From NCBI RefSeq assembly GCF_014195535.1, contig NZ_JACIBY010000017.1, positions 1 through 64,000 on the forward strand: a DNA stretch of 64,000 nt, given 5' to 3'. Below, piece after piece: positions 23,198-57,240 of the stretch. The notes under the pieces were generated by a model. It made no database searches. It saw nothing but the letters and a program-made list of their open reading frames with translations, and was not told where the DNA came from. Origin of the DNA: Runella defluvii (GTDB taxonomy: Bacteria; Bacteroidota; Bacteroidia; Cytophagales; Spirosomataceae). The first letter of the stretch is position 1; the number at the start of each line of letters is the position of its first letter. A program made the translations under genes and the position numbers.

Positions 23198-23998
23198 ATG
23201 AAAAAGCTATTCTTCGGGCTTTTGATTTTCGCAACTGCGCTACAGTCTTGCAAAACCGACCCAGACCCCAACGAAAAAAATACGCTTACCCTGTCTTTTG
23301 CCAATAAAGTAGGCACGCAAGACGTGGTGTTGGGCAAAGAGTCGTACCAAAATGCCGTGGGCGAAACGTTCGGCGTAACTACCTACAATTATTTTATCAG
23401 CAACATTTCCCTCAAAAAATCGGACGGAACGCTCTATACTGTTCCGCAAGATTCGAGTTATTTTCTTATCAAAGAGTCTAATCCTGCCTCCAAAAAAGTA
23501 ACCCTGCGAGGCGTTCCAGCGGGCGACTATACCGAACTTCGCTTTATGATTGGGGTCGATAGCCTTCGCAACACCATGGACATCAGCCGCCGCACGGGCG
23601 TGCTTGACCCTGGCGACGCTACCCACGATGGCGACGGGATGTATTGGTCGTGGAACTCGGGCTATATTTTCCTCAAAATGGAAGGAACTTCACCTCAAGT
23701 GGTCGCCGATGCCGCAGGAAACCGCAAATACCGCTACCACATTGGAGGATTTGGAGGTTATAATGCCAAAACATTCAACAACCTACGTACCGTAACGCTG
23801 CCGTTGGGAAGCGTAGCCGCAACCGTTGGCCCCAACCAACAACCCGTGATTGAGGTAGTGAGCGATATTTCTAAAATTTTTAACGGTACGCAAAAAGTAA
23901 GCCTCGCCCAGTACCCCACGGTGATGTTTGCCGATTATTCCAGTACAGTTGCCAACAACTACGCCAGCATGTTTAGCATCGGCAGTGTAAAAGATTAA
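23198..23998 (+). CDS. MbnP-like copper-binding lipoprotein (copy 1)
   Basis: 266 residues. Lipobox Cys18 (ALQSC), then the MbnP fold: LTLSFANKVGTQDVVLGKES, NYFISNISLKKSDGT, VPQDSSYFLI, GVPAGDYTELRFMIGVDSLR and GMYWSWNSGYIFLKMEG with Trp150 and Trp152. A later HIGGFGG supplies His. In the studied methanotroph pair, MbnP is a periplasmic protein whose Trp is oxidised to kynurenine by MbnH to form a copper site. The cognate MbnH-like gene starts 7 bases after this stop. Lipid anchor on the periplasmic or outer-membrane face is inferred. Confidence 0.82.
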   Translation: MKKLFFGLLIFATALQSCKTDPDPNEKNTLTLSFANKVGTQDVVLGKESYQNAVGETFGVTTYNYFISNISLKKSDGTLYTVPQDSSYFLIKESNPASKKVTLRGVPAGDYTELRFMIGVDSLRNTMDISRRTGVLDPGDATHDGDGMYWSWNSGYIFLKMEGTSPQVVADAAGNRKYRYHIGGFGGYNAKTFNNLRTVTLPLGSVAATVGPNQQPVIEVVSDISKIFNGTQKVSLAQYPTVMFADYSSTVANNYASMFSIGSVKD

Positions 23999-24004
23999 CC
24001 ACGC

Positions 24005-25084
24005 ATGAACAAGTCGTTTCTCGTTGTCGGTGCTATGGCTTTGTTTGGATGGGCGGCGTGTCGGCAATCGTCGTCACCCACGCCCGACCCCACTACGCCC
24101 ACGACCGAGACGCTGGAACTGACTCAGCCGAGTTACTTCCCACCGCTGGTGTATGACCTCAAGGCCAACCCGCTTACCTACGACGGGTTTCAGCTAGGTC
24201 GCTCGTTGTTTTACGATGGACTTTTATCAAGAAATGGCACGATTGCCTGCGGAACCTGTCACCAACAAGCCGTGGCTTTTACCCACCACGGGCACGATTT
24301 GAGCCACGGCATTGACGATAAAATTGGCATGAGAAACGCCCCGCCCATTCAAAACATGGCGTGGGCTAAAGAGTTTTTCTGGGACGGAGGCGTGCATCAG
24401 TTGGATTTGTTTCCGATTGCCCCCATTGAAAACCCCGTTGAAATGGACGAAAAGCTACCGAATGTCCTCCAAAAACTCCGCGATAGTAAAAACCCCAACT
24501 ACCCCGAACTGTTCAAAAAAGCCTTTGGCAGCACCGAAATTACCACCGAGCGGTTTACCAAAGCCTTGTCACAATTTATGGTCTTTTTGGTGTCCAACAA
24601 TTCCCGTTACGACCTTTACCTGCGCGGTACAACCAACGCCCTCACGGCGACCGAAAAAGAAGGATTGGCCTTGTTTAAACAAAAATGCGCGACTTGCCAC
24701 GCGGGTGAATTGTTTACCGACCAATCGTTTCGTAACAATGGCCTCGACAACAGCCGCAGCAGCGACCAAGGGCGGTTCCGCATCACTCAAAACCCCGACG
24801 ACCTCTTTAAATTTAAAGTTCCTAGCCTACGCAATGTCGGCTACACCTCCCCTTACATGCACGACGGCCGTTTTAGTACTCTCGAACAAGTACTAAACCA
24901 CTACACCACCAACGTCCAAAAAACCGCTACCTTAGACCCAACGCTGCAAGCCAACGGCCAACTCGGCATTGCGATGACCGACGACGAAAAGGCCAAAATC
25001 ATTGCCTTCTTAAAAACCCTCTCCGACGAACAATTTGTAAAAGACTACCGCTTTGCCGACCCAGGTTTTGGAAAGGCTTTTTAG
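24005..25084 (+). CDS. MbnH-like di-heme enzyme, MauG/cytochrome c peroxidase family (copy 1)
   Basis: 359 residues with lipobox Cys19 (GWAAC). First c-type heme site CGTCH at residues 82-86 followed by the His-rich AFTHHGHDLSHGID, second site CATCH at 228-232 followed by AGELFTDQSFRNNG. FKVPSLRNVGYTSPYMHDGRF near the C-terminus is typical of the family. By homology to MbnH it would oxidise a Trp of its MbnP partner; a peroxidase role is the alternative. Operon with the preceding MbnP-like gene. Confidence 0.85.
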   Translation: MNKSFLVVGAMALFGWAACRQSSSPTPDPTTPTTETLELTQPSYFPPLVYDLKANPLTYDGFQLGRSLFYDGLLSRNGTIACGTCHQQAVAFTHHGHDLSHGIDDKIGMRNAPPIQNMAWAKEFFWDGGVHQLDLFPIAPIENPVEMDEKLPNVLQKLRDSKNPNYPELFKKAFGSTEITTERFTKALSQFMVFLVSNNSRYDLYLRGTTNALTATEKEGLALFKQKCATCHAGELFTDQSFRNNGLDNSRSSDQGRFRITQNPDDLFKFKVPSLRNVGYTSPYMHDGRFSTLEQVLNHYTTNVQKTATLDPTLQANGQLGIAMTDDEKAKIIAFLKTLSDEQFVKDYRFADPGFGKAF

Positions 25085-27258: not shown

Positions 27259-27280
27259 AGCGATGATGTTTGAAAATCGT

Positions 27281-27970
27281 TTATTGTAAAAAATAACCAG
27301 TAAGTTGATACGCCAGCAACACAAAACCTGCGGCCATTAAAAGGGTGTTTGTTAGCGTAGAAAAACGCTGAAAGCTCGCGTAGTTTCTCCAAATACGCAG
27401 AAGCAGAAGAACAAAAATGAGCGCCAAAAACTGACCAATTTCTACCCCTAAGTTAAAGCCAATCAAGTTGGCAAATAGCCCTTCTTTGCCCATTTCAAAC
27501 TCTTGAAGTTTGGTTGCCAACCCAAATCCGTGAAACAATCCAAAAACCAACACCGCGATTTTGGTGTCGGGCTGAACGCCAAATAGGGCTTTAAATCCTC
27601 CCAGATTGTCAAACCCTTTATAGACAATAGAAAAAGCAATGATGGCATCAATCAAATAGGCATTGATTGAAATTTTGGCTAAAACCCCCAGCAAAAGGGT
27701 AAGGCTGTGCCCAACGGTAAAAAGGCTGACGTAAATCAAGATGTCTTTGGGACGATAAAGGAAAAAAATGACCCCGAGTAGGAAGAGAATGTGATCGTAG
27801 CCTGTCAGCATGTGTTTGGCTCCGATGTAAAGGAAAGGGACAAAAGCAACGCCTTCGTTGGCCAACAAAAACGACTTGGTTTTATCGTCCACCCCGTGGG
27901 CGCAAACGACCAAACTTGTCATGCACAGCAGCAACATCAGCCCTATGTTGGCTCGTTTTTTATACTTCAT
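27281..27970 (-). CDS. HupE/UreJ-family metal permease
   Basis: 229 residues: signal peptide (LLLCMTSLVVCAHG), then about six membrane helices with the family motif GAKHMLTGYDHILFLLG, GHSLTLLLGVLA, and VFGLFHGFGLATKL. HupE/UreJ members move nickel or cobalt; the subtype with an H-x-L-T-G-x-D-H motif is also found near copper genes, so the metal here is open. Its start faces the promoter of the small Cys-motif gene at 28131 and the CRP-like site at 28045, so it may be co-regulated. Confidence 0.75.
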   Translation of the reverse strand: MKYKKRANIGLMLLLCMTSLVVCAHGVDDKTKSFLLANEGVAFVPFLYIGAKHMLTGYDHILFLLGVIFFLYRPKDILIYVSLFTVGHSLTLLLGVLAKISINAYLIDAIIAFSIVYKGFDNLGGFKALFGVQPDTKIAVLVFGLFHGFGLATKLQEFEMGKEGLFANLIGFNLGVEIGQFLALIFVLLLLRIWRNYASFQRFSTLTNTLLMAAGFVLLAYQLTGYFLQ

Positions 27971-28044: not shown

Positions 28045-28060
28045 TGTGACTTTTATCACA
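28045..28060. promoter_or_regulatory. CRP/FNR-type operator
   Basis: TGTGACTTTTATCACA is a perfect TGTGA-N6-TCACA palindrome. It sits in the divergent gap between the HupE gene and the small Cys-motif gene. Its centre is 48.5 bases before the -7 element at 28101, placing it near -61 from the probable transcription start, a classical activator position. A Crp/Fnr regulator is encoded at 57313. Confidence 0.7.
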
Positions 28061-28130: not shown

Positions 28131-28529
28131 ATGAACGGCAAAAGAGTCATAGCGTACTTTTTATTGACACTTATCAGCTTTAAAATGCTGGCTAGTCCGT
28201 TTGTGTATCTTGACTTTGAGCTGCGTAAAGAGTTCATTATCAAAAACCTTTGCGAAAACCGCTTCAAACCGCAGCTTCATTGCGATGGCAAGTGTTACCT
28301 CGCCAAACAACTTCATAAAGTAGCAGAAGACAACGCAGCTAACGAAGCTCAAAAACAAGGAGAAAACATTAAAAAAGTGCTTGAGGAAGTTTTTGAAGAC
28401 TCCACAGGACAACAAACAAGCCCTTTTTCTCCAAAACGCATTACTTTTTCTGTCTGCGTTTTTAAGCCCAATTTTTACATTTCGGACTTCAGTTTAGTGC
28501 TGCTACAGCCTCCCGCCTTTACGGCTTAA
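28131..28529 (+). CDS. Small Cys-motif protein, C-x9-C-x3-CYL family (copy 1)
   Basis: 132 residues. An N-terminal hydrophobic helix (IAYFLLTLISFKML) is followed by FVYLDFELRKEFIIKNL and the motif LCENRFKPQLHCDGKCYL with Cys41, Cys51 and Cys55. Then comes a Lys/Glu-rich helix (KVAEDNAANEAQKQGENIKK) and a hydrophobic Pro-ending tail (LLQPPAFTA). I do not recognise a named family. Four relatives lie in this window, mostly as first gene of a copper module, here before an MbnP-MbnH pair. A periplasmic metal-binding or thiol role is inferred from the Cys triad and context. Confidence 0.72.
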   Translation: MNGKRVIAYFLLTLISFKMLASPFVYLDFELRKEFIIKNLCENRFKPQLHCDGKCYLAKQLHKVAEDNAANEAQKQGENIKKVLEEVFEDSTGQQTSPFSPKRITFSVCVFKPNFYISDFSLVLLQPPAFTA

Positions 28530-28635
28530 TCCCTTTTTCTCGATGCTGTACTGATACAGATGGGTGAATTGCGCCTGTCTTACTCTGCCGTATCCCATAC
28601 TCCTTTTACTTTCTTATTTTCCAACCATTTGTCCA

Positions 28636-29445
28636 ATGAAAAAGACGTACGTTTTCGCATGTCTGGTATCACTGGGTTTGACAAGTGCATTGCTTTCTTG
28701 TCATAATCATCATGAAATCGATCCCAATGATACCAATGATCTTTTACTCGAATTTGATAACCGAGTCGGTTCTCAAGAATTGGAGTTAAAAAATAAAACC
28801 TACAAAAACGCGCTTGGCGAAGAGTTTACCGTCACGAAGCTGAATTATTTTGTGAGTAACATCAAACTCAAAAAGACCGACGGTACAGAGGTCAAATTCT
28901 CTGAACAGTATTTTCTGACCCGCGAAGAAGACCCAAAAACGTTGTTGGTTTCGCTCAAAGATGTTCCTGCGGCCGATTACACAGCCCTGAGTTTCACCAT
29001 TGGCGTCGATAGTTTACGTTCTACGGCGGATATTTCACAGCGGAAGGGTGTTTTGGATGTTGCCTCTTATGGCGACGACGCCATGTACTGGTCGTGGAAC
29101 TCGGGTTATATTTTTCTCAAATTTGAAGGACTTTCGCCAGTGGCTCCACTCCGAACCAGCGGTGAAAAAAAAGTAGAAGTTCATATCGGTGGGTACGGAG
29201 GCTACACGGGGCGTACGGTTAATAATTTACGAACCATAACACTACCGCTCCCTACAACAGCGGAAGTACGCAAAAAACATACGGCCACCATTCATTTGTT
29301 TGCCGATGTCCTCAAGCTCTTTGAGGGAAAAAACGCCATCAGTTTTGTCACTACAAATTCTGTCCATAGCCCAGGAGCTGGCGTTGCGGCGGCCGATAAT
29401 TCTGTGAATATGTTCACGGTTGACCATGTCCACAATGGCCATTAA
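28636..29445 (+). CDS. MbnP-like copper-binding lipoprotein (copy 2)
   Basis: 269 residues from ATG 28636 (MKKTYVFACL), chosen because it starts a proper lipoprotein signal ending at Cys22 (ALLSC). HNHHE follows directly and may bind metal. MbnP hallmarks: LLLEFDNRVGSQELEL, LNYFVSNIKLKKTDGTE, TIGVDSLRSTADISQRKGVL and MYWSWNSGYIFLKFEG with Trp152 and Trp154, plus HIGGYGGYTGR. The C-terminus ends in VDHVHNGH, another His cluster. Partner MbnH-like gene follows with the stop and start regions almost touching. Confidence 0.82.
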   Translation: MKKTYVFACLVSLGLTSALLSCHNHHEIDPNDTNDLLLEFDNRVGSQELELKNKTYKNALGEEFTVTKLNYFVSNIKLKKTDGTEVKFSEQYFLTREEDPKTLLVSLKDVPAADYTALSFTIGVDSLRSTADISQRKGVLDVASYGDDAMYWSWNSGYIFLKFEGLSPVAPLRTSGEKKVEVHIGGYGGYTGRTVNNLRTITLPLPTTAEVRKKHTATIHLFADVLKLFEGKNAISFVTTNSVHSPGAGVAAADNSVNMFTVDHVHNGH

Positions 29446-29467
29446 ATTTTTGAGTAACTGTTTACGA

Positions 29468-30562
29468 ATGAGGAGGATGAAAAAAGTAATTTATACCCTG
29501 TTGTTGTTCTGTGCCGCTTGTCATTCTACTGCAACAAAAGAAGAGCCAGCCCCAACAAACCCAACAGACAAGAAGCTATTTAACGTACCTACCAACTTCC
29601 CTGCACCTGTTTACGAGGAAGATAAATCGCCCGTGACCGAAGCTGGCTTTCTTTTGGGACGTACGTTGTTTTATGATGGCCGGCTTTCGCGCGATGGCAC
29701 CATTTCTTGTGGCGAATGCCACCGTCAGGAATATGCCTTTACCCACCACCAGCACGACGTAAGCCACGGGATTGATAATCAGTTGGGGGAACGCAATGCG
29801 CCGTCTGTTCAGAACATGGCATGGCGGAAGGAGTTTTTTTGGGATGGAAGCATTCAAAGCCTTGACTTAGTACCAATTACGGCCATCGAAAGCCCCGTTG
29901 AAATGGGTGAAACGATGGATAATGTCCTCGAAAAATTACGAAAAATCGAAAAATATCCGCCTCTCTTTGAGAAAGCCTACGGCAGCAAAGAAATCAACCA
30001 AGAGCGGTTTTTGAATGCCCTTTCTCAGTTTGTACTTACCCTTACTTCGAGCAACTCAAAGTACGACAAAGTGATGCGGAACGAAGGCGCAACATTTACG
30101 ACCGACGAAGGCGCTGGTTTTGAACTATTTAAGCAAAAATGCCAAAGTTGCCACGCTGGAGAGCTCTTTACTGACCAAAGTTACCGCAACAATGGGTTGG
30201 CACTGGATGTGACTCGTCAGGTAGTTGTCAATGGCAAAATTGAAACAAAACGCTTCTTCGACGAAGGCCGATACCGCGTCACAAAGCAAGAAAAAGACCG
30301 CTTCAAATTTAAAGTACCCAGCTTACGCAATGTAGGCGTGACCCGACCTTACATGCACGACGGGCGCTTTTGGATACTGGAAGATGTGCTCGACCACTAT
30401 GCCGAACGCATGACTGACAACGGAATTGTAGATGAAGTGCTGAAAACCGACGGAAAGGCAGGGCTGAAATTATCTCACGAAGAAAAAATGAAAATCATTG
30501 CCTTTCTGCACACCCTCACCGACCGCAATCTTTTGTTAGACCCCAAATTTTCTGAACAATGA
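29468..30562 (+). CDS. MbnH-like di-heme enzyme (copy 2)
   Basis: 364 residues from ATG 29468 (MRRMKKVIYTLLLFCAAC, lipobox-like Cys18); ATG 29477 is an equal alternative, preceded by AGGAGG. Heme sites are SCGECH followed by AFTHHQHDVSHGID, and CQSCH followed by AGELFTDQSYRNNG. FKVPSLRNVGVTRPYMHDGRF is conserved. A short insertion (VTRQVVVNGKIETKRFFDEG) before that segment is absent from copy 1. Overlaps the following outer-membrane gene by 4 nt, so translation is coupled. Confidence 0.83.
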   Translation: MRRMKKVIYTLLLFCAACHSTATKEEPAPTNPTDKKLFNVPTNFPAPVYEEDKSPVTEAGFLLGRTLFYDGRLSRDGTISCGECHRQEYAFTHHQHDVSHGIDNQLGERNAPSVQNMAWRKEFFWDGSIQSLDLVPITAIESPVEMGETMDNVLEKLRKIEKYPPLFEKAYGSKEINQERFLNALSQFVLTLTSSNSKYDKVMRNEGATFTTDEGAGFELFKQKCQSCHAGELFTDQSYRNNGLALDVTRQVVVNGKIETKRFFDEGRYRVTKQEKDRFKFKVPSLRNVGVTRPYMHDGRFWILEDVLDHYAERMTDNGIVDEVLKTDGKAGLKLSHEEKMKIIAFLHTLTDRNLLLDPKFSEQ

Positions 30563-31482
30563 GCGTTTCCACCATTCGTCTTTTCGTTACTAGTTTTTTG
30601 ATTTTCACCGCCTTGTCGGCTTCGGCCTGTGAGGTGTGTGGCTGTGCCAATGCAGGCTCCTATTTTGGTATCATGCCCCAAGTAGGCCGTTCATTTGTTG
30701 GACTGCGCTACCGAACGGCTTCCTTTGATTCCCATTTGAGTAATCCAATGCTCCAAACGCGTGAGCAGTTTCAGAGTGTGGAGCTATGGGGGCGTTTTTA
30801 TCCTTTGAAGCGCATTCAACTCATGGCTTTTGTGCCTTATTTCTTCAACCATCAAGCCGAAGTAAAAACGGGTGTAAACCGTCGTTTGAATACCTTAGGC
30901 GACGCTTCTGTCGTAGCCAATTACAACCTTTTTAACACATTTTGGGATAGTACTTACCACGGAAATATTCAACATAGTCTTTTGGTAGGCGGTGGGGTAA
31001 AACTCCCTACTGGGCGTTACGAATACGATATTGCGGGCCTAACCGACGTCGCCAACCCCAATTTTCAGCCTGGCACGGGCAGTACCGACTGGTTTGTCAC
31101 GGCCCTTTATTCCATGCGTTTTGGCCCGTGGGGCTGGAATACCGACCTTACCTATCGGCACAACGGCCTCAACCCCAACCGTTATCGCTTTGGAAACCGT
31201 GTCACGGCCAATACCCTTTTATTTTATAACAAAGAACTAAAAAACCTTACCCTCATGCCTCATGCGGGACTCTATACTGAAATCGCCGAAAAAGACTTCA
31301 ACCGCCGAGAACGAGTTGAACGAACTGGCGGCTATATCAGCACTGCTAACCTTGGAATGGATGTTTTCCTACAACGCTTTACCGTAGGAGCAACCTACCA
31401 ACAACCCATCGCACAAAATTTGGCCGTTGGTGAAATTCGCGCCAGCGCCCGCCTCACGACTCACATCACTTTTATGTTTTAA
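30559..31482 (+). CDS. Outer-membrane barrel protein with N-terminal CxxCGC motif (copy 1)
   Basis: 307 residues. After the signal peptide, ACEVCGCANAGSYFGIMPQ places Cys24, Cys27 and Cys29 at the mature N-terminus. The rest is amphipathic beta strands ending in Phe (TTHITFMF), the pattern of a transporter-type outer-membrane beta-barrel (MetA-pathway-like fold family). The protein has no assigned function. It is translationally coupled to MbnH copy 2 and has a paralogue at 37313 in the same relative place, so a role with MbnP/MbnH at the outer membrane, perhaps metal uptake or docking, is inferred. Confidence 0.7.
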   Translation: MSVSTIRLFVTSFLIFTALSASACEVCGCANAGSYFGIMPQVGRSFVGLRYRTASFDSHLSNPMLQTREQFQSVELWGRFYPLKRIQLMAFVPYFFNHQAEVKTGVNRRLNTLGDASVVANYNLFNTFWDSTYHGNIQHSLLVGGGVKLPTGRYEYDIAGLTDVANPNFQPGTGSTDWFVTALYSMRFGPWGWNTDLTYRHNGLNPNRYRFGNRVTANTLLFYNKELKNLTLMPHAGLYTEIAEKDFNRRERVERTGGYISTANLGMDVFLQRFTVGATYQQPIAQNLAVGEIRASARLTTHITFMF

Positions 31483-32304: not shown

Positions 32305-32688
32305 TTGAAGAAATTTGTTTCCATAGGGCTCATTTTGGCAGTTTTGCTACAACCATTCTATCGGTTGTGGATTGTCGTGACGTTCCAAATCAACCAAGAT
32401 TTCATCGCAGCGACATTGTGCGAGGAGCGAAATACGCCTGAAAACGATTGCCAAGGCCATTGCTATTTATGCAAGCGCCTCCACCAAGCCGACGAGCGCG
32501 AGAAGCAAATTCCTATACTGGTCAAACTGGCCGAGGCAGTTCTTTATGTTCAAGAAAATCATACTGAATGGCTTCCTAGCCCCATTTGGCATTGGCTATT
32601 CCCTATTCCTCTTCAAACCCTTTTCCTTCACTACAATTTTCTAGGTGTTTATGATTTTTTAGACCCACCCGAAGCCACCGTCTGCTAA
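32305..32688 (+). CDS. Divergent small Cys-motif protein (copy 2)
   Basis: 127 residues from a TTG start (MKKFVSIGLILAVLLQPFYR). The motif LCEERNTPENDCQGHCYLCK keeps the C-x9-C-x3-C-Y-L spacing of its relatives (Cys39, Cys49, Cys53) and adds Cys56, giving a CxxC. The rest has diverged: the N-terminal helix is followed by IVVTFQINQDFIAATL instead of FVYLDFELRKEF. It lies between MbnP copies 3 and 4. Function unknown; a separate specialised member of the same family. Confidence 0.62.
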   Translation: MKKFVSIGLILAVLLQPFYRLWIVVTFQINQDFIAATLCEERNTPENDCQGHCYLCKRLHQADEREKQIPILVKLAEAVLYVQENHTEWLPSPIWHWLFPIPLQTLFLHYNFLGVYDFLDPPEATVC

Positions 32689-34908: not shown

Positions 34909-34924
34909 TGTGACTTTTGTCATA
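34909..34924. promoter_or_regulatory. CRP/FNR-type operator
   Basis: TGTGACTTTTGTCATA differs from the 28045 site at two positions (TGTGA-N6-TCATA). Its centre is 29.5 bases before the -7 element at 34946, so about -41 from the probable start, the class II activator position. It serves the second small Cys-MbnP-MbnH module. Confidence 0.65.
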
Positions 34925-34974: not shown

Positions 34975-35370
34975 ATGAACGGTAAGAGGATAATCGCCTA
35001 CTTTTTATTCGCTCTCCTCAGCATCAAAATGCTGTTGGTGCCGTTTGTGTATCTGGATTTTGAGCTGCGTAAAGAGTTCATTATCAAAAACCTCTGCGAA
35101 AATCGCTTCAAACCTGAGCTGCATTGCGACGGGAAATGTTACCTCGCCAAACAGCTCACCAAAGTAGCCGAAGGCCACGCCCGCGAAGAAGCCCAAAAAC
35201 AACAAGATACCTTCAAAAAAATCACCCAAGAGGTGTTTGATGAGCTTACGTTTGTGTTTTTACCCGTTCAGATGACAAATGCTGAACGTGTGCTCAATAC
35301 GCACTACTTACCCCCTATCACTTCTGAATTTACCACTACATTGCTCCGCCCCCCTGCGGCACTGTCGTAA
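34975..35370 (+). CDS. Small Cys-motif protein (copy 3)
   Basis: 131 residues, nearly identical in its first 70 residues to the 28131 protein: MNGKRIIAYFLFALLSIKML, FVYLDFELRKEFIIKNL and LCENRFKPELHCDGKCYL (Cys41, Cys51, Cys55). The C-terminal half diverges (VFLPVQMTNAERVLNTHYLP) and ends in LLRPPAALS. It heads a module of MbnP copy 5, MbnH copy 4 and the second CxxCGC outer-membrane protein. Function unknown. Confidence 0.72.
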   Translation: MNGKRIIAYFLFALLSIKMLLVPFVYLDFELRKEFIIKNLCENRFKPELHCDGKCYLAKQLTKVAEGHAREEAQKQQDTFKKITQEVFDELTFVFLPVQMTNAERVLNTHYLPPITSEFTTTLLRPPAALS

Positions 35371-46511: not shown

Positions 46512-47170
46512 TGATGTCTATTATGTCCTCGAAACTAATCACCAAGTCCATAACAGCGATGCTGTTATGGACTTGCCTCAGTTGTAACTTCAACTCCAAA
46601 CCGCTGCCCATCTTGGGCGAACCTGAGATTGTTCAAAAAGTAGTCGATGGTAAAACCATTGAAGAGAAAGTCTATCCGACCATTCCTGAGTTTGCGTTTA
46701 GGAGTCAATACGGCGATACCATTACCTCCAAAAACTTCAAAGACAAAATCTACGTGGCTGATTTTTTCTTTGTGACTTGCCCCAGGATTTGCCCCGTGAT
46801 GAAGAAAAATATGCTTAAAGTCTATGAGGCTTTCAAAGACGACCCGCGCGTCGGCATTCTCTCCCACACCATTGACCCCGACCACGATAGCGTGCAGGTC
46901 TTGAAAACCTACGCCGATGATTTGGGTTTAAAAGGTCGAACGTGGTTATTTGTGACGGGCAATCGCGAAAAAATCTATGAAATTGGAGAAAAGCATTATC
47001 TGGTAACAGCCCAAGCCGACGACCAAGCGCCTGGCGGCTATATCCACAGTGGGGCTTTTGTGCTGATTGATAAAAACAAACACATTCGCGGCATGTACGA
47101 CGGAACTGAAGAAAAAGAAGTGCAGCTGATGATACGCGACATGAAGACGTTGCTGGAGGAAAGCAAGTAA
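46511..47170 (+). CDS. SCO1/SenC-family copper chaperone
   Basis: 219 residues with an N-terminal lipobox-like signal (LLWTCLSC). Thioredoxin fold with the copper site: TCPRICPVMKK gives Cys90 and Cys94 (CxxxC), and His179 lies in GGYIHSGAF. SCO proteins deliver copper to CuA centres, classically of cytochrome oxidase; NosZ also has a CuA site and is encoded in this window. Translationally coupled to the TonB receptor. Confidence 0.88.
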   Translation: MMSIMSSKLITKSITAMLLWTCLSCNFNSKPLPILGEPEIVQKVVDGKTIEEKVYPTIPEFAFRSQYGDTITSKNFKDKIYVADFFFVTCPRICPVMKKNMLKVYEAFKDDPRVGILSHTIDPDHDSVQVLKTYADDLGLKGRTWLFVTGNREKIYEIGEKHYLVTAQADDQAPGGYIHSGAFVLIDKNKHIRGMYDGTEEKEVQLMIRDMKTLLEESK

Positions 47171-48815: not shown

Positions 48816-49205
48816 ATGATTTTTAAACGGTACATAGCGCTATTTTTATTGGTTTTGGTCAGCATCAAAACCTTGCTAGTGCCATTTGTTTATTTGGATT
48901 TTGAGCTGCGCAAAGACTACATCGTTCAGCAACTTTGCGAAAACCGCTTCAAGCCTGAGCTTCATTGCGACGGAAAATGTTATTTAGCCAAACAACTCCA
49001 CAAAGTAGCCGAAAATAACGCCTCCAAAGAAGCCCAAAAACACGCTTCTTTTCTCAAAAAAATCGTAGAAGATACCTTTGAAGAACTCACCTTTACGGTT
49101 GAGTTTCCTCCTCATTTTATTGGTATCAATGTGCCCCAAAGTGCCACTTCGCACTTTCTTCTTCCTGAGCACGACCAAGTGCCCATTAAGCCCCCTATTG
49201 GGTAA
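48816..49205 (+). CDS. Small Cys-motif protein (copy 5)
   Basis: 129 residues from ATG 48816; a longer in-frame version would include the terminator and promoter and is rejected. MIFKRYIALFLLVLVSIKTL, FVYLDFELRKDYIVQQL and LCENRFKPELHCDGKCYL (Cys41, Cys51, Cys55), then FLLPEHDQVPIKPPIG. Closest to the 43127 copy, with which it shares the C-terminus and the downstream layout (small frames, then a TonB receptor). Confidence 0.72.
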   Translation: MIFKRYIALFLLVLVSIKTLLVPFVYLDFELRKDYIVQQLCENRFKPELHCDGKCYLAKQLHKVAENNASKEAQKHASFLKKIVEDTFEELTFTVEFPPHFIGINVPQSATSHFLLPEHDQVPIKPPIG

Positions 49206-49413: not shown

Positions 49414-51732
49414 ATGAACAAATACACCTTATTATTTTTAAGTCTTTTCATGGCGAGTCATCTATTGGCTCAAAACCTCAAAGGAACCGTCAAAAACCAA
49501 GCAGGAGTAGGTCTTAGTGGTGCTAGTATCCTGTTGTTAAATAGCAGTCAAGGAAGTACTGCCGATAAGGATGGCACTTTCTCCCTCAACTTAAAAGCAG
49601 GAAAATATCAAGTACAGTTTAGTGCCGTTGGGTACGCTACTAAAATTCAGCAAGTAGAAATAACCAACACAACCATCGCCTTAGAGGTAACTTTATTGGA
49701 TAATACGCAAACACTGGGCGAGGTAGTCATTACAGCCGACAAGGTCGAGGCAAATTTACAAAAAACGCCTTTGGCCGTTACCTCCTTAAATGCCAAACAA
49801 TTAGAAGAATATAGAGTCTGGACAATCAATGACCTGACTGCATTAGCACCAAGTACCTTCACGGTAGAGCATGGCAATAGTACAGGTTCTAGCTTTTTGA
49901 ACATCAGGGGCTCGATGGGTTTTTCAAATGACCAAGCGGTGGCTACGTATGTCGATGGCGTTTATCAATTTGACTACTTCTCGGCACCGCTCAATTTCAG
50001 TAATATCGAACGAGTTGAAATTTTGAGGGGACCTCAAGGCACGCTCTACGGCCGAAATGCCTTTGGTGGTGTACTCAATGTGATTACCAAAAGACCCAAC
50101 AACAAGACCAGCGGGTTTGCCGAAATAGACCTGGGAAATTATGGACAACAGCGTTATAGCGCGGGTTTCAATACACCTTTGATAAAAGATAAGCTATTTA
50201 TCAATGCAGGTTTCCAATCAAACGGTCGCGGAGCGATTTATGACAATCCGACTTTGAATACGAAAGATTTTGACAAGCACAACGCTTACATCGGCAATGT
50301 AAACCTAAAGTACATTGTATCAGACAAATGGACTATCGACTTGAATACAAGATACGAAAACGACAAAGACAAAGGCGCCTATCCTTGGTCGGCGACAGAT
50401 AGTATCGCCAGAGCCAATCCTTATACTGTTTACGGGAATTGGGATAACACCGAGCGAAGAACTAATTTCAACACTTCTGCCGCCGTAAAATATTTTGGCA
50501 ACAACTTCAATTTTACCTCCATTACGTCTTTTGTAGATTACCACATTTGGCTTCCAGGACGATTTGATTTTGATTTTAGCCCTGCGGAGCTTATTAGCTT
50601 TACGACTTGGTCGAAGCAAAACCAATGGACGCAAGAATTGCGCTTTTCTTCTCCCGCCAATACCAGTGCATTAAAATGGACGGTGGGTTCCTTTTTGTTT
50701 GGCGAAAAAAGCAAGAATAGTAGTACGACTTACTTCGACAAAGATTACGCCTTGTTTGACCCGAATGCACCTTATGCTTCTATTGGTAACGGAAAAAGAA
50801 ATGCGTACGGCGTGGCTTTTTTTGGACAAGCTACGTATGCCATTACGCCCAAATTTGATATAACTGTCGGAGCAAGGTATGACATTGAACACCGCGAGCT
50901 TACCCAAAATTCAGCGTTTGAAACAGGAGGAGTTGTAATGCCTCTAACAACAGACAGTACTGCCAAGAAAACGTTCAATGCCTTTACTCCTAAAGTGATT
51001 TTAAGTCAAAAGTTGACAGAAAATTCGATAATTTATGGTTCTTATGCCAAAGGATTCAGGGTCGGAGGTTTCAATTTTGGAAATGCAGCAAACCCTACTT
51101 ACAATCCTGAAAAATCAGATAATTATGAGGTGGGCGTTAAAAATACCTTCCTAAACAACCGACTTAAAATCAACCTTACGGCTTTCTATTTTCAACAAAA
51201 AGACCAGCAAGTTTCGACCTCACAAGACGGCATAAACTACGCTACGCTCAATGTAGGTGACATGGATAATTATGGATTGGAATTGGAGGCTTCGGCACTT
51301 CCTGTCAAAAACCTACAGATTGATTGGACGGCCAGCACGTCGCATAGTGAGTATAAAAAATTAGAACTTTTTGATGCGGCATCCAATACTGTCATCAACT
51401 ACAAGGGCAACAAAGCGATTAATAATCCCGCTTTGCAATCTATGCTGGCGGTTCAGTATGGTTTGCCTTTATCAAAATCCGCCCAAAACCTCAAAGCTTT
51501 CGTCAGAGGAGAATTGAGATACATCGGAGAGTATCAATTGGATTTTGTGAATGCTTATCATCAGGATGCTTACAGTATGATAAACGCCAGAGCAGGTGTA
51601 ACCAGCAATCATTTTGATGTGGCTATTTGGGCACGCAACCTCAGTGACGTACGCTATATGGCTTTCGGATATGGCTCCTACATGATGGGTACACCAAGAA
51701 TGTGGGGAATAACATTAACTGGTAAATTATAG
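49414..51732 (+). CDS. TonB-dependent outer-membrane receptor (copy 2)
   Basis: 772 residues. Same architecture as the 44127 receptor: LKGTVKNQAGVGLSGASILL, YQVQFSAVGYATKIQQVEI, EVVITADKVEANLQKTPLAV, plug VEILRGPQGTLYGRNAFGGV and a barrel ending GITLTGKL. The gene looks more AT-rich in codon use than its neighbours by eye, which may mean later arrival; not calculated. It begins a long run that continues through DJ-1, DUF4198, PepSY, MbnP and MbnH genes. A metal-complex ligand is inferred. Confidence 0.85.
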   Translation: MNKYTLLFLSLFMASHLLAQNLKGTVKNQAGVGLSGASILLLNSSQGSTADKDGTFSLNLKAGKYQVQFSAVGYATKIQQVEITNTTIALEVTLLDNTQTLGEVVITADKVEANLQKTPLAVTSLNAKQLEEYRVWTINDLTALAPSTFTVEHGNSTGSSFLNIRGSMGFSNDQAVATYVDGVYQFDYFSAPLNFSNIERVEILRGPQGTLYGRNAFGGVLNVITKRPNNKTSGFAEIDLGNYGQQRYSAGFNTPLIKDKLFINAGFQSNGRGAIYDNPTLNTKDFDKHNAYIGNVNLKYIVSDKWTIDLNTRYENDKDKGAYPWSATDSIARANPYTVYGNWDNTERRTNFNTSAAVKYFGNNFNFTSITSFVDYHIWLPGRFDFDFSPAELISFTTWSKQNQWTQELRFSSPANTSALKWTVGSFLFGEKSKNSSTTYFDKDYALFDPNAPYASIGNGKRNAYGVAFFGQATYAITPKFDITVGARYDIEHRELTQNSAFETGGVVMPLTTDSTAKKTFNAFTPKVILSQKLTENSIIYGSYAKGFRVGGFNFGNAANPTYNPEKSDNYEVGVKNTFLNNRLKINLTAFYFQQKDQQVSTSQDGINYATLNVGDMDNYGLELEASALPVKNLQIDWTASTSHSEYKKLELFDAASNTVINYKGNKAINNPALQSMLAVQYGLPLSKSAQNLKAFVRGELRYIGEYQLDFVNAYHQDAYSMINARAGVTSNHFDVAIWARNLSDVRYMAFGYGSYMMGTPRMWGITLTGKL

Positions 51733-51789
51733 GTCAGACGATAGTCAGACCGAGTCGCGCATTTTTGGGGTCTGACTGTCGTCTGACCT
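51731..51789. repeat. Inverted repeat AGGTCAGACGATAGT family (copy 1)
   Basis: 20-bp arms 51731-51750 and 51770-51789 pair with one G-T wobble around a 19-nt loop, directly after the receptor stop. The arm sequence AGGTCAGACGATAGTCAGAC recurs at 58546-58565. Confidence 0.75.
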
Positions 51790-51827
51790 TGTGCACGGCT
51801 CTATTACATTTCAACAAATCTGTCACA

Positions 51828-52976
51828 ATGAAACACTTAACAATTATTCTTATACTGATGTATGCTGCTTGCATCAGTGCAATTGCTCAAACCTCCGAAG
51901 CCGATTCAACTGCCAAACGTCACGATGAACTCATGCAAATCATTATGACCAAGCCTAAAGTCCCCATCAAAACCATTGGGGTCTATGTGTATGACGGCTA
52001 CAATACCCTCGATGCCATAGGGCCGTATCAGGTGCTGTCGGAGCTGATGAGCGTCAACATTTTTTTTGTAGCCAAAAACAAAGGCTTCGTCAAAAATCAA
52101 CGTGGGCTCGAAGTGAAGGTAGATAAGTCAATCGCCGAGGTGGAGCAATTAGACATTCTCATTATTCCAGGGGGTGCCAAAGAGACATTTTTCCAAACCC
52201 AAGACCAAGAAGTACTAGATTGGATTCGGAAGATAGACCAGAAGTCTGTTTATACGGCTAGCGTCTGTACTGGGGCGTGGATTTTGGGGGCAACGGGGCT
52301 GCTCGAAGGCAAAAACGTTTCATCCAACTGGTACCGAGCCAGTGAAATCATGGGTATGTACGGTGCCAAATACCAACCCGAACGCTTCGTGCGAGACGGC
52401 AAGTATTGGACTTCGGCAGGCGTAACGGCAGGTATGGACATGGCGCTGGGGATGATTAACGAGCTCATGGGCGACAAGTACACCAAAGCCGCTCTGCTTG
52501 ACCTCGAATACGACCCCAAGCCTATCTATCCTGATGGCAACGCCACCAAAACCGAACCCATCGTCAAAGAAATGTTGATGCAAATGTATGACATGGGTCT
52601 GAAACCGTTGATTGATGGCGAGAAAAGCAAAAAAGAAGAATTGGCCTTAGAGAAGAAAAAACAGGAAAGTTGGCCAGAACTCGACGACTATCATGCTGTC
52701 ATGGCCCAGACCTTCCACCCTGCCGAAGAAGGCAATTTGAAGCCACTTTACGCCAACGCCGAACAATTAGCGGCCAAAGCGAGCATCCTAAAAAAATCGG
52801 TTGTTCCTGCCAAATACCAAAAACCTGGCGTCAAAGAAAGCGTAGAAGCGCTTGAGAAAGAATCGGTTGCTTTGGCTAAAATGGTCAAGAAAAAGAAATC
52901 GGAAGATGAACTTAAAAAGGCGATATTTGCCTTACACGACCGTTTCCACGAGGTCATGGAAAAGTGCCATCACTAA
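51828..52976 (+). CDS. Exported DJ-1/PfpI-family protein with helical His/Cys C-terminal domain
   Basis: 382 residues with a signal peptide (LTIILILMYAACISAIAQ). The DJ-1/PfpI domain spans about residues 46-235: GVYVYDGYNTLDAIGPYQVL, LDILIIPGGAKETF and the nucleophile Cys147 in ASVCTGAWILG. The final ~125 residues form a predicted helical bundle (YHAVMAQTFHPAEEGNLKPL, ESVEALEKESVALAKMVKKK) ending LHDRFHEVMEKCHH, reminiscent of cytochrome b562/c' bundles without a CxxCH. Periplasmic location is unusual for DJ-1 proteins. First gene after the receptor in module E. Confidence 0.75.
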   Translation: MKHLTIILILMYAACISAIAQTSEADSTAKRHDELMQIIMTKPKVPIKTIGVYVYDGYNTLDAIGPYQVLSELMSVNIFFVAKNKGFVKNQRGLEVKVDKSIAEVEQLDILIIPGGAKETFFQTQDQEVLDWIRKIDQKSVYTASVCTGAWILGATGLLEGKNVSSNWYRASEIMGMYGAKYQPERFVRDGKYWTSAGVTAGMDMALGMINELMGDKYTKAALLDLEYDPKPIYPDGNATKTEPIVKEMLMQMYDMGLKPLIDGEKSKKEELALEKKKQESWPELDDYHAVMAQTFHPAEEGNLKPLYANAEQLAAKASILKKSVVPAKYQKPGVKESVEALEKESVALAKMVKKKKSEDELKKAIFALHDRFHEVMEKCHH

Positions 52977-52990
52977 CAAACTATACCAAA

Positions 52991-53788
52991 ATGAAAAAAC
53001 TGTTTTCCTTGCTCTTACTTTTTGTCGCTTCCAGTTTGTTTGCCCATGAGTTTTGGCTCATGCCAAGTAAGTTCAAATTAAAAATTGGCGAACTTTTTGA
53101 TTTGCAGCTATTTGTAGGCGAAGATTTTATGGGAGACATTTGGGCAAATCGTAAAAAACGGTTGTTAAAACTGACTCATTTAACAGAGCAAAATAGGCAA
53201 GATTTAACTTCCATTGCCCTCAAAAGCGATTCGTTGCCAATTCCGTTAAAATTCAATTCCGAAGGCACTCACTTATTGACCATGGAGTCTAAAAACTCCT
53301 TCATTGCCCTCGAAGCCGACAAATTCAACGATTATTTGAAGGAAGATGGCATTGAAAACATCTATGAATTGCGCAAAAAGCAGGGGCAGCTTACCCAACC
53401 TTCCAAGGAGTTGTACCGTCGTTGTGCCAAAACGTTGATTCAAGTGGGGAACAAATACAGCGATACATTTAAGAAAAACACCCAAATGCCGCTGGAAATT
53501 ATTCCCCTCAACAACCCTTATCAAATGAAGGCTGGGGAAGCAATAACAGTCAAGGTTTTGTTTAAAAATCAACCACTTAGCAACAAAATGGTGGTGGCTT
53601 GGCACAAAACAGCCACCCAAAAAACGACCCACCGTAAGCTTACCACCAACGCCGATGGTTCGTTGAAAATCCCCCTTGACAAAGCGGGCTATTGGATGAT
53701 TAGTACCGTTCACATGGTGGAAGTCAAAAATAACCCTGAGGCCAATTACCAAAGTTACTGGGGCAATCTAACCTTTCAATTGCCATGA
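52991..53788 (+). CDS. DUF4198 periplasmic protein
   Basis: 265 residues from ATG 52991. Signal peptide (LFSLLLLFVASSLFA) is followed directly by HEFWLMPSKFKLKIGELFDL, so the mature N-terminus begins with His, a feature of metal-binding DUF4198 proteins. The C-terminal Ig-like region reads AGEAITVKVLFKNQPL, TTNADGSLKIPLDKAGYWMI and STVHMVEV. Relatives accompany nickel, cobalt or copper uptake systems. Overlaps the PepSY gene by 4 nt. Confidence 0.75.
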   Translation: MKKLFSLLLLFVASSLFAHEFWLMPSKFKLKIGELFDLQLFVGEDFMGDIWANRKKRLLKLTHLTEQNRQDLTSIALKSDSLPIPLKFNSEGTHLLTMESKNSFIALEADKFNDYLKEDGIENIYELRKKQGQLTQPSKELYRRCAKTLIQVGNKYSDTFKKNTQMPLEIIPLNNPYQMKAGEAITVKVLFKNQPLSNKMVVAWHKTATQKTTHRKLTTNADGSLKIPLDKAGYWMISTVHMVEVKNNPEANYQSYWGNLTFQLP

Positions 53789-54918
53789 TAAAAAACGTGA
53801 GTCGCGTTCTTTTTCGCCTCCATAGTTGGTTTGGCCTCATTACGGGAGTATTTCTACTTTTGCTAGGACTGAGCGGGTCTATTTTGGTATTTATGGAAGA
53901 ACTTGACCCCATTATTTACCGCCACTCCCTGACCGTCAAACCTACGGGTGCGCCTTTGCCGATCGATAGTTTGTACCGAATCATCACGGCCGAATACCCC
54001 AACCTCGACGGAATCGCTTGGCTTAACCCCGAAGCCACTCCCGAGCAATCGTACCATTTTCGGCTGTACATGAACGATACTCGCCTGATTTCGTACGATT
54101 TGGGTGCCATCAATCTCAACCAATACACGGGTCAAATTCTTCGCAAAGGCCGCAGCGACGACCTCGAAGTGGGCTGGATTGAATGGATTTTTCAATTCCA
54201 TTTTTCGTTTCACCTCGGGATGCCTGGCGCGGCACTTACCGCCATTTTTGGCCTAACCATGCTCGTTTCTATTCTTACGGGCTTGGTGGTGTACCGTAAG
54301 TTTATTTGGAAAGTGCTGGCCTTTAAGGTGAAAATCAACCGTAAAAACTGGCGAACCATTTCCTCTGATCTACACCGCATCGTGGGGGTTTGGTCGCTGG
54401 CGCTCAATGTCATTGTCTTCTTCACGGGCTTTTGGATGAATCTTTTTGCCTTTGAGAAGAAAACGTGGGACAACGAAATCGTACCGACTCCCGCCAATAC
54501 ATTGGCCAACGTATCGCTCCAAAGCTTGTACCAACAAGCCCTTGAAAAAGCGCCAAATTTTACGCCCAACTACGTTTATTTGCCCACCCAACCCCATCGT
54601 AAGTTCAACGTAAGGGGGTATTATAAGGATGAAAACAGGCTGTTTTCGAGTCGAAATGCCATTGTTTTTGATGCTTATACGGGGCAATTTGTGGGAATAA
54701 CCCGTTATGCCGACTTATCGACTTGGGAAAAAATCGAAGCAACTTTTCATCCCCTCCACGTCGGGAATTTTGGAGGAATTTTTGTCAAAATCTTGTACGT
54801 CATCCTTGGGCTTACCCCTGGCGTTTTGTCAGTGACGGGCTTTTTGCTCTGGTGGCGTCGAAATCGTAAAAAAACTAACATTCACAAACAGACCAATCAA
54901 ACGACTTTTGCACAATGA
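53785..54918 (+). CDS. PepSY-associated transmembrane protein
   Basis: 377 residues with four membrane helices. First helix LFRLHSWFGLITGVFLLLLG, then LSGSILVFMEELDPI, middle WIFQFHFSFHLGMPGAAL, and last helix VLSVTGFLLWWRRNRK, all typical of the PepSY_TM family, which is linked to siderophore or metal-chelate systems as inner-membrane reductases. Conserved His residues (RLHSWFG, DLHRIVGVWS, FHPLHVGNFGG) could bind heme b. Sits between DUF4198 and MbnP genes, overlapping both by 4 nt. Confidence 0.83.
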   Translation: MIKNVSRVLFRLHSWFGLITGVFLLLLGLSGSILVFMEELDPIIYRHSLTVKPTGAPLPIDSLYRIITAEYPNLDGIAWLNPEATPEQSYHFRLYMNDTRLISYDLGAINLNQYTGQILRKGRSDDLEVGWIEWIFQFHFSFHLGMPGAALTAIFGLTMLVSILTGLVVYRKFIWKVLAFKVKINRKNWRTISSDLHRIVGVWSLALNVIVFFTGFWMNLFAFEKKTWDNEIVPTPANTLANVSLQSLYQQALEKAPNFTPNYVYLPTQPHRKFNVRGYYKDENRLFSSRNAIVFDAYTGQFVGITRYADLSTWEKIEATFHPLHVGNFGGIFVKILYVILGLTPGVLSVTGFLLWWRRNRKKTNIHKQTNQTTFAQ

Positions 54919-55694
54919 AAAATCTTCTTTTCGTGGTAGGACTTCTAATGTGTTCGCCACTCTTTGCCCAAAAAACAGGCTCGCTTACCCTCCAATTTCA
55001 CAATAAAGTGGGTACGGAAGAGGTCGTTCTGAAAGACAAACAATACACCAATGCCTTGGGTGAGTCGTTCAACATCACCTTTTTGCAATACTATGTTAGC
55101 AACCTTCGCTTGCTTCGCAAAGACGGCAGCGAATACGTGGTTCCCCAAGACGAAAGTTACTTTTTGATTCGCCAACAACATCCAGAATCACAGAAAATTA
55201 CCCTCAACAACGTCCCAAAAGGTGACTACGTTGGGCTGAGCTTTGTGATTGGCGTTGACAGTCTTCGCAGTGCTTCCGAAGTAAGCAAACGCAAAGGTTG
55301 CTTAGACGTGGGCGGCGATGGCAAAGACATGTACTGGGCGTGGAATTCGGGCTATATTTTTGTTAAAATGGAAGGAACTTCACCCCAAATTCCACTCACG
55401 GGCAACCGCAAAGAGCCTATTTTCTTGTACCATATTGGTCTTTTTGGTGGAATGGGCGACAAGAAAACGTTGAACAATATCAAAGTAGCATCGTTGAATT
55501 TTGGCAAAGAAAAAGTAAAAATCAAAGCCGATAAAAACGTGGCGCTTGGCATTACTACCGACGTTTCTAAGCTATTTACGGGTACTACGAACGTAAGCTT
55601 TGCGGTGAATTCGACGGTGATGGCGGGGCCTTATTCGGCCAAAATTGCGGACAATTATGCTTCCATGTTTTCGTACGAAGGCATTCAAAAATAA
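54915..55694 (+). CDS. MbnP-like periplasmic copper-binding protein (copy 6)
   Basis: 259 residues with a plain cleavable signal (VVGLLMCSPLFAQ), so unlike the other copies it is not a lipoprotein. Core: LTLQFHNKVGTEEVVLKDKQ, LQYYVSNLRLLRKDGSEYVV, PQDESYFLIRQ, FVIGVDSLRSASEVSKRKG and MYWAWNSGYIFVKMEG with Trp141 and Trp143, then YHIGLFGGMGD. Translationally coupled to the PepSY gene and one base before MbnH copy 5. Confidence 0.82.
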   Translation: MKNLLFVVGLLMCSPLFAQKTGSLTLQFHNKVGTEEVVLKDKQYTNALGESFNITFLQYYVSNLRLLRKDGSEYVVPQDESYFLIRQQHPESQKITLNNVPKGDYVGLSFVIGVDSLRSASEVSKRKGCLDVGGDGKDMYWAWNSGYIFVKMEGTSPQIPLTGNRKEPIFLYHIGLFGGMGDKKTLNNIKVASLNFGKEKVKIKADKNVALGITTDVSKLFTGTTNVSFAVNSTVMAGPYSAKIADNYASMFSYEGIQK

Positions 55695-55695
55695 G

Positions 55696-57240
55696 ATGAA
55701 TACGCGTATTACCCTTGTTTTCTCTGCCTTTGGCTTTTTGTTGTTGTCGTTTTGCCGCAACCGCCAGGACGAGCTTTTTACCAAACCGAGCCACTTTCCC
55801 GAACCCGTCTATAAGTTTCAGGAAAACCCGCTCACGCCAGCGGGAGTTGCGTTGGGAAAAACGCTTTTTTACGACGCTTTACTCTCCAAAGACAACACCG
55901 TCAGTTGCGGCAGTTGCCACCAACAATCGGCAGGTTTTACCCAACATGGACATCCATTGAGCCACGGCATCAACGATTTATTGACCAAACGAAATTCGAT
56001 GCCGTTGTTCAACTTGGCGTGGTCAACCGACTTTGGCTGGGACGGCGGCGTACATCATTTGGATTTATTCGCCATTTCTCCCTTGCAAAACCCCGCCGAA
56101 ATGGACGAGTCGTTACCCAATGTGTTGGAAAAACTCAGGTATTCAAAAACCTACCCCGCCCTGTTTGAAAAAGCCTTTGGTACCGACGAAATCAACACCG
56201 AACGTTTCCTCAAAGCCTTATCTCAATTTATGTTGACGATGGTTTCGGCCAATTCACGCTACGATAAATGGATGCGAAACGAAGGCGGTGCGCTGACCGA
56301 AACCGAGCAAGAAGGGCTTGCGCTGGTAGAACAAAAGTGCGCCCCTTGTCATTCGGGGGTGCTATTTTCGGATTTTAAGTATCGAAACAATGGCCTTCCT
56401 ACGGCCGTCAACACCGACGAAGGGCGCTACGACATTACGCTTCACGACGAAGACCGTTTTAAGTTTAAAGTACCGAGTTTACGGAATTTAGCCTTTACGG
56501 CTCCTTACATGCACGACGGGCGATTGGGCACCCTCGAACAAGTGCTTGAACATTACAGTTCGGGCATCGAAAAAAGTGCGACGGTGGACCCGCTTTTGGT
56601 AAAAAATGGGCAAAAAGGAATTGCGTTGACGGCAGAGGAGAAACAAAAAATCATTGCTTTTCTCCAAACCCTCAACGACGAATCGTTCGCAAAAGACCCC
56701 CGCTTTTCGGAGTCAGACGCGGCACCCGCTCCTGAACTCGCCGAATTTGCCAATACCGATTGGGAAAAAGTTGACTTACGAACTGACAATCCCGTCATCA
56801 AATCAACCCTCGCCAAAGCCCTGAGTTACTACTGGGGAATCAAACAAGGGCTGTTGACAGACAATGGAAAAGAATCGTCGCGCTCGGCCAAGTTGTTACT
56901 CAATTTGCTCGAGAACATCGACCTTTCCACCGCTGCTCCCATCCAAAAAGCATTTTACCTAAAAGTATATCAAGACCTTGGGTTTGATACCGAACACGTG
57001 GCTGAAACCGAGTCGGTGGCCCACCAACGCGACCACTTTGGTGACCTAAGCAAGAACTTATTCCGACTTATCAAATCGTTCAAAACCAACGACAAACCAT
57101 TGTACTATTACACCTGCCCCAAGGCCGCCAACGGCATCGGCGGGTTTTGGCTATCAGAAATCAACGACGAAAAGGGAAATCCGTTTTTTGGAAAAAATGA
57201 CAAAAAATGCGGCCAAATTGTAATGACGGCGTTGGAGTAA
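55696..57240 (+). CDS. MbnH-like di-heme enzyme fused to a DUF3347 domain (copy 5)
   Basis: 514 residues, about 155 longer than its relatives. Signal with FLLLSFC (Cys20). Heme sites: CGSCHQQSAGFTQHGHPLSH at 71 onward and CAPCHSGVLFSDFKYRNNG. FKVPSLRNLAFTAPYMHDGR is conserved. The C-terminal extension (about 355-514) is a DUF3347-type helical domain found in copper-efflux and heavy-metal proteins, with its end motif YYTCPKAANGIGGFWLSE, NPFFGKND and KKCGQIV. Covalent joining of a putative Trp-oxidising enzyme to a metal-binding domain supports a copper function. Confidence 0.8.
   Translation: MNTRITLVFSAFGFLLLSFCRNRQDELFTKPSHFPEPVYKFQENPLTPAGVALGKTLFYDALLSKDNTVSCGSCHQQSAGFTQHGHPLSHGINDLLTKRNSMPLFNLAWSTDFGWDGGVHHLDLFAISPLQNPAEMDESLPNVLEKLRYSKTYPALFEKAFGTDEINTERFLKALSQFMLTMVSANSRYDKWMRNEGGALTETEQEGLALVEQKCAPCHSGVLFSDFKYRNNGLPTAVNTDEGRYDITLHDEDRFKFKVPSLRNLAFTAPYMHDGRLGTLEQVLEHYSSGIEKSATVDPLLVKNGQKGIALTAEEKQKIIAFLQTLNDESFAKDPRFSESDAAPAPELAEFANTDWEKVDLRTDNPVIKSTLAKALSYYWGIKQGLLTDNGKESSRSAKLLLNLLENIDLSTAAPIQKAFYLKVYQDLGFDTEHVAETESVAHQRDHFGDLSKNLFRLIKSFKTNDKPLYYYTCPKAANGIGGFWLSEINDEKGNPFFGKNDKKCGQIVMTALE

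Follow-up and report, generated by a model that had tools for sequence, protein, structure and literature searches.

The Runella defluvii DNA analysed here (bases 1-64000 of contig C17, hereafter the window, from a genome of 8.0 Mb in 50 contigs) carries a real island of MbnP and MbnH, a known protein pair that is unusually well represented here and has a divergent Bacteroidota form, and a candidate translation-based copper sensor heads several of its units. We write P for MbnP copies, H for MbnH-like proteins, S for small proteins with a cysteine motif and a C-terminal Pro-Pro (PP), and O for an outer-membrane channel family. Established are the families, one fold, the conserved residues, the cognate pairing of P with H, the recurrence of an S-P-H-O unit, the features of S, the different origins of the pairs and the lack of an MbnB-family enzyme. 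Taken together, it seems somewhat probable that this is a copper-acquisition island of several operons, controlled by arrest on S and equipped with H enzymes that oxidize their cognate P.

A preliminary description of the region listed six MbnP-like proteins sharing the motif W-[SA]-W-[NQ]-x-x-Y-I-F, and on both counts it was right. All six have the motif and score 124.7-194.8 bits with PF20243, whose cut-off is 27 bits; they are the only PF20243 matches in the genome, all at 23198-55694. The genes, on the plus strand like every H, S and O gene of the window, are P1 (23198..23998, 189 bits, with a lipobox), P2 (28636..29445, 184 bits; the listed open reading frame begins at 28564 and we chose the ATG at 28636), P3 (31486..32289, 164 bits), P4 (32758..33669, 124.7 bits), P5 (35468..36268) and P6 (54915..55694, 169 bits, no lipobox by the rule used). 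P5, which was modelled, has the fold of the solved MbnP in structure comparison. In the wider family one well conserved histidine is kept in 108 of 120 rows, and a simple lipobox rule marks 105/120 P and 95/120 H sequences as likely lipoproteins. The four-Cys motif in the name of PDB entry 7l6g was not encountered: 105 of 120 rows have one or two cysteines, signal part counted, and P1 to P6 have 1, 5, 3, 1, 1 and 2; none of the five in P2 lies beyond its lipobox.

MbnP occurs in 218 of the 295 genomes of the class sample, with six copies in two (R. defluvii and G013) and five in four. Within the genus sample (13 genomes including this one, one of them 83% complete) a match is present in 12, the counts being 6 (R. 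defluvii), 1, 1, 1, 1, 3, 1, 1, 0, 1, 1, 2 and 2. P1 is the copy common to the genus, with an ortholog in 12/13 genomes (R. defluvii counted) and none in G008. Elsewhere, a Dyadobacter MbnP (L096:5870-6778) has lost both WxW tryptophans and the histidine and yet lies within an S-P-H-O array, and a Cytophagales metagenome-assembled genome (MAG) has three consecutive MbnP genes with one MbnH (L073:7367-10317).

Five MbnH-like di-heme proteins, each adjoining an MbnP, had also been described correctly: H1 (24005..25084, partner of P1, 225.8 bits with TIGR04039), H2 (29420..30562, 232 bits, true start probably further in), H4 (33740..34837, partner of P4, 235 bits), H5 (36273..37316, 231 bits) and H6 (55645..57240, 228 bits), the last with a C-terminal DUF3347 domain (PF11827, residues 394-483). 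Two CxxCH sites are present in all five. The MbnH-DUF3347 fusion also exists in a sister genome (G005) at 95% identity. Outside the window the R. defluvii genome has three more long matches of the MbnH-like kind and another that is split in two, and no MbnP was found there; such MbnH-like di-heme proteins were noted at C5:310985, C6:127780 and C19:84809. At loci L087, L099, L101, L105, L106, L111 and L116 the order is S-H-P-H followed by O, and the leading H genes form a clade of their own.

Profile searches gave a divided answer. PF20243 is exceeded by all six P, but the MbnP equivalog TIGR04052 scores them at 35.5-49.3 bits, below its cut-off of 140 bits; all five H match TIGR04039, but at 225.8-235.4 bits they fall short of its 362.85-bit cut-off. 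These scores weigh against the copper-acquisition reading of the island, as do the replacement of the conserved histidine by glutamate in P4 and its whole clade (six proteins, the others at L073, L096, L117, L121 and L123; WxW is kept) and the lack of an MbnH partner for P3. One could envision that the five H are plain di-heme peroxidases and that the P proteins have another ligand, the name MbnP being misleading. The sub-threshold scores and the histidine loss are compatible with this, and a single-sequence search with H5 matched nine PDB peroxidase sequences better than MbnH. Yet the best solved relative of a five-row H profile is MbnH, and a tyrosine at the MbnH/MauG-type second-haem position is invariant in the five H and aligns with a tyrosine of 6e1c, whereas the four peroxidases among the matches listed have methionine there. 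A role for the tyrosine at this position is familiar from enzymes of the MbnH/MauG type. With the co-evolution of P and H described below, these features make the peroxidase explanation very improbable.

Distances among P proteins correlate with those among their H partners at 0.83 in 82 pairs (H at most three genes downstream of P; most single-copy Runella loci excluded). Shuffling partners within eight multi-pair genomes lowered the correlation to a mean of 0.48 and a maximum of 0.81, with none of 2000 shuffles as high as the real value. Within the window alone the real pairing ranks first of 120, narrowly (0.728 vs 0.713). We conclude that the pairs are cognate; they are also of different origins. 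Module duplication, proposed earlier as the source of the expansion, was rejected as the main route because none of the five pairs has another of them as its nearest relative in both the P and the H tree (124 and 118 rows, built by a quick method). The six P and five H copies fall into different clades, most of them common to other genera. P1/H1 group with the copy that is the only or the first one in the other Runella genomes. P4/H4 belong with modules that come last in Dyadobacter and other multi-module loci (H4 in a six-row clade), and P6/H6 with a Saprospiraceae MAG and a second module found in Emticicia agri; H5 adjoins Lacihabitans, and the sister of H2 is a Cytophagia MAG protein. P2 and P5 share a loosely resolved clade of 20 rows while H2 and H5 are not paired, and judging from the trees an old duplication limited to these two P copies is possible. 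The branches of P3 and P4 are long, and their exact places are unsure.

The sister genome G005 has P1/H1, P5/H5 and P6/H6 at 95-97% identity. In the stretches of it that were read, the block of about 7 kb from S1 to H4 is missing from that place, and the first TonB receptor with its SCO gene was not there. As far as sequence comparison goes, the likeliest history is probably the gain of divergent cognate pairs, the block included; its loss from G005 is a possible alternative.

The pairs belong to a compact unit that recurs beyond Runella. In 80 named loci fetched with P, in which genes were called in this analysis, the numbers of loci are 79 for H, 77 for P and 65 each for S and O; S-P-H-O is unbroken in 30 and S-P-H in 41, and 11 have two or three P. 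The five S and two O proteins of the island were absent from the preliminary description. The O family often lies downstream of MbnH, and its 85 rows have an invariant N-terminal cysteine and a C-D-x-C-G-C pattern. O1 (30559..31482), with an N-terminal cysteine cluster, has no Pfam or NCBIfam match. O2 (37313..38320, start uncertain), beginning with CDICGC, is predicted to be an outer-membrane beta-barrel: its AlphaFold2 model (predicted local distance difference test, pLDDT, 86.2, low at the N-terminus) is nearest to FapF and a COG4313 channel. Phenol_MetA_deg was matched by 3 of 50 O proteins.

Particularly suggestive is the S family. S1 (28131..28529), with C-x9-C-x-G-x-C and a C-terminal PP, is a candidate copper-sensing upstream open reading frame; S2 (32305..32688) is divergent and S3 lies at 34975..35370. 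S4 (43127..43516) stands 610 bases before TonB receptor 1 and S5 (48816..49205) before TonB receptor 2, and a sixth S just beyond the window (C17:65574-65957) precedes a small lipoprotein-like gene and a third TonB receptor. S occurs in 157 of the 295 class genomes, the six copies of R. defluvii lying within about 38 kb. The 159 S proteins average 133 residues, and a hydrophobic N-terminus was noted in S by inspection. Their motif, of the C-x9-C-x-G-x-C type in 156 (one spacing in 155), is unlike CXXC and CxxxC, and its three cysteines are nearly invariant. PP falls in the last nine residues of 158/159 S against 18/490 other small open reading frames; among 156 tails FHPP (75), FRPP (17), FQPP (16) and LRPP (12) are the commonest. 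Identity is highest in the tail (0.59) and the motif (0.56) and lower in the N-terminus (0.24) and the linker (0.13), while the distance from the last cysteine to PP is held at 67.5 +/- 2.5 residues. That standard deviation is no tighter than the P and O anchor spacings (1.7-3.3) and is notable only beside the low identity. On the coding strand the linker has an excess of C over G (0.12 vs 0.02 in the N-terminal part of the same 120 genes, p 1e-11).

The gene that follows S shares its strand in 150/154 cases (P-centred loci counted too), and the median distance to it is 100 bases as against 42 for other neighbours. To look at S independently of P, a run of 41 successive entries was taken from the S list and reduced to 40 by dropping one of two adjoining G301 matches, with 6-kb flanks that in some cases reach the contig end; S was re-called in 38. 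P, H or O is present at 24/40 and P, H, O or a TonB receptor at 30/40, against 0/20 at control sites 30 kb off in 20 of the same genomes. The gene after S in this sample (n=42) was O in 13 cases, P in 10 and TonB in 6. Ten of the 27 unlabelled genes that follow S were scanned: five are YtkA-like, two AraC-type, two carry secretion tails and one matches Phenol_MetA_deg.

It is tempting to propose, at a confidence a little short of even, that the S proteins are arrest peptides which sense copper, a family spread across Bacteroidota with no relation to DUF2946 or only a very remote one, and that they control a regulon for copper uptake (MbnP/MbnH, O channel, TonB receptors). The six copies within 38 kb would then give one organism a bank of ribosome-read copper sensors, each before a different divergent pair or receptor and possibly with different copper set points. 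Several observations on S count against the copper-acquisition reading with arrest on S. S ends in [FL][HRQK]PP, and the RAPP of CruR was not met; DUF2946 has no match in the genome and is not among the best 25 of 27 families for 51 S proteins. The neighbour upstream of S is on the opposite strand or more than 100 bases off in only 82/145 cases (starts may be too early), S2 lies 15 bases behind P3, the P1-H1 pair has no S, 10/40 S-centred loci have no P, H, O or TonB gene in reach, and the spacer after S has a small C-over-G excess (0.15 vs 0.11, p 0.012). The linker, finally, evolves faster than the motif, P and H and yet is not neutral: median omega is 0.19 for the linker, 0.025 for the motif, 0.07 for whole P and 0.06 for whole H, approximate values in that many dS are about 1. 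This selection on the linker leaves room for S to act as a protein as well. In an alternative explanation S would be no regulatory peptide but a common type of small, exported chaperone that hands copper to MbnP or the receptors. In its favour are the cysteines, the purifying selection, which is seen on the motif and in part on the linker, the hydrophobic N-terminus and the 63/145 cases in which S is not clearly first of its unit. We regard it as unlikely nonetheless: PP stands at the very C-terminus in 158/159, the weakly conserved linker has a narrow length range, the gene downstream is nearly always on the same strand, and S stands before TonB, O and MbnP genes alike.

If S is an arrest peptide, the island could work as follows. 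Under copper shortage the ribosome on a leading S gene would pause at the C-terminal Pro-Pro, and the pause would keep transcription of the operon going, a model reached by others for CruR. Copper bound by the three cysteines of S would release the pause, and the operon would stop. The operons would supply the outer-membrane TonB receptors and O channels, SCO and the MbnP proteins, with the PepSY_TM protein as a possible copper reductase. Each MbnH-like enzyme would oxidize its own adjoining MbnP, probably at one WxW tryptophan, giving a putative copper site. A copper system without methanobactin had been suggested before; its support comes from context and fold only, namely the MbnP fold, the match of the H profile to MbnH ahead of other solved structures, and the lack of an MbnB-like gene, likewise noted earlier (no PF05114 match in the genome).

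The accompanying genes named earlier were all recovered by Pfam, cytochromes c and the DUF3347 domain among them. They comprise, on the plus strand, TonB-dependent receptors 1 (44127..46511) and 2 (49414..51732; both PF00593, PF07715), SCO1/SenC (46511..47170, PF02630), a DUF4198 protein (52964..53788, PF10670) and a PepSY_TM protein (53785..54918, PF03929), and on the minus strand a HupE/UreJ_2 membrane protein (27281..27970, PF13795). A DJ-1/PfpI protein (51765..52976, plus strand, PF01965) follows receptor 2. The OprC/NosA model TIGR01778 was not among the 24 families of receptor 2, nor among the best 25 of 31 of receptor 1. Adjoining HupE on the minus strand, 26635-27324 encodes a His-rich protein of 229 residues with no Pfam match, and between H1 and the HupE pair lies an ATPase-like gene (25192-26613, read from the sequence), not at that place in G005. 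It is also worth considering that the island serves tolerance to, or sequestration of, copper or another metal rather than uptake. DUF3347 and DUF4198 occur near metal-export genes, and MbnP could store metal. We consider this quite improbable: a TonB receptor and PepSY_TM occur together in the Bordetella copper-uptake operon and SCO-type genes in related operons (PMC12914433, PMC13038864), and no export pump was identified among the island genes scanned, which were part of the total.

Downstream lies a Sec-type nitrous-oxide reductase, NosZ (58649..60688, plus strand, TIGR04246, 917 bits vs 625), and before it a Crp/Fnr-family regulator (57283..57912, plus strand; PF00027 above cut-off, PF13545 at 25.8 bits just under 27). 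The preliminary description noted that the island lies beside this copper-demanding enzyme. As driver of the expansion it was rejected on the genus counts, a weak test with 13 genomes: MbnP numbers 6, 1, 1, 1, 1, 1, 1, 0, 1 and 2 in genomes with nosZ and 3, 1 and 2 in those without. That the expansion serves NosZ is, in our estimate, quite unlikely on the same counts, and the P1, P5 and P6 modules are present in G005, which has no nosZ match. In favour of such service, nosZ appears in the fetched flanks of 5/80 named loci (three Lacihabitans) and in 2/40 S-centred loci as against 0/20 controls, and Crp/Fnr-type palindromes lie on the plus strand before S1 (28045..28060, a perfect TGTGA-N6-TCACA), before S3 (34909..34924) and directly before the regulator gene beside the nosZ unit (57244..57255). 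The core TGAYNNNNRTCA is found upstream of 28/110 S genes and 42/1068 unlabelled genes (p 6e-13, for related loci that are not independent and a motif picked after inspection). The window has ten such sites, the three just named and seven elsewhere, none of them before S2, S4 or S5. Canonical CRP sites (TGTGA-N6-TCACA, up to two mismatches) showed no excess, with 20 in the window and 25.4 expected from shuffles, and the FNR box TTGAT-N4-ATCAA precedes none of the 110 S genes. The promoter sites suggest that a further signal feeds in, with oxygen or nitrogen oxides as possible candidates, and are offered as a lead only.

Placing the MbnP/MbnH pair in a recurrent compact Bacteroidota unit, with an outer-membrane channel of its own and a candidate translation-read copper sensor, points to the non-methanotroph genera Runella, Dyadobacter, Emticicia and Spirosoma as places to test what the pair does, how specific each enzyme is for its partner and whether arrest peptides exert copper control. 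MbnP and MbnH have been studied in methanotrophs. Compared with the pair of Methylosinus trichosporium (7l6g and 6e1c; TIGR04052/TIGR04039), the island proteins score below both NCBIfam cut-offs, are without the four-Cys set and are in many cases likely lipoproteins; the island has several divergent pairs and no methanobactin enzyme. MopE/SACCP and CorA/CorB of methanotrophs (PMC3912023) offer a copper protein with kynurenine and a di-heme partner, as proposed for P and H here. The CorA copper site has two histidines, whereas the P family has the one kept in 108/120 rows; CorA/MopE was not among the matches listed in the fold comparisons of MbnP.

On the regulatory side, CruR of Bordetella senses copper via CXXC, arrests on a C-terminal RAPP and controls an operon of a TonB-dependent transporter and PepSY_TM (PMC9426467, PMC12914433, PMC13038864); in other bacteria, genes of the SCO type and MbnPH-like genes also belong to CruR operons (PMC12914433, PMC13038864). 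The cruR-crtA-crpH operon of Bordetella pertussis resembles the island in its leading small gene with cysteines and a C-terminal PP, its TonB receptor and its PepSY_TM gene, and the C-rich S linker recalls what has been described in CruR as a 'C>G bubble' (PMC9426467). S differs from CruR in being unmatched by DUF2946, in having C-x9-C-x-G-x-C rather than CXXC, a linker of about 67 rather than 45 residues, and [FL][HRQK]PP rather than RAPP. Like S, the CutF-like proteins (PMC9973294) are small, have a Cys motif and a PP close to the C-terminus, and precede a metal gene on the same strand. That set holds 5,334 proteins, 40% from Bacteroidota when normalised and 19% otherwise, and S may already be within it, unnamed; MbnP and MauG were not found in the paper's main text. 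A scan for RAPP/RGPP peptides placed copper-related upstream open reading frames in various lineages, with exceptions that include Bacteroidota (PMC12992588). Given these three lines of work, the idea of such copper-related frames is already known. An HPP-type Bacteroidota family tied to MbnP/MbnH, O and TonB units was not found in the literature searched, which covered few subscription journals; such a family, if true, would fill the Bacteroidota gap of the RAPP/RGPP scan (PMC12992588).

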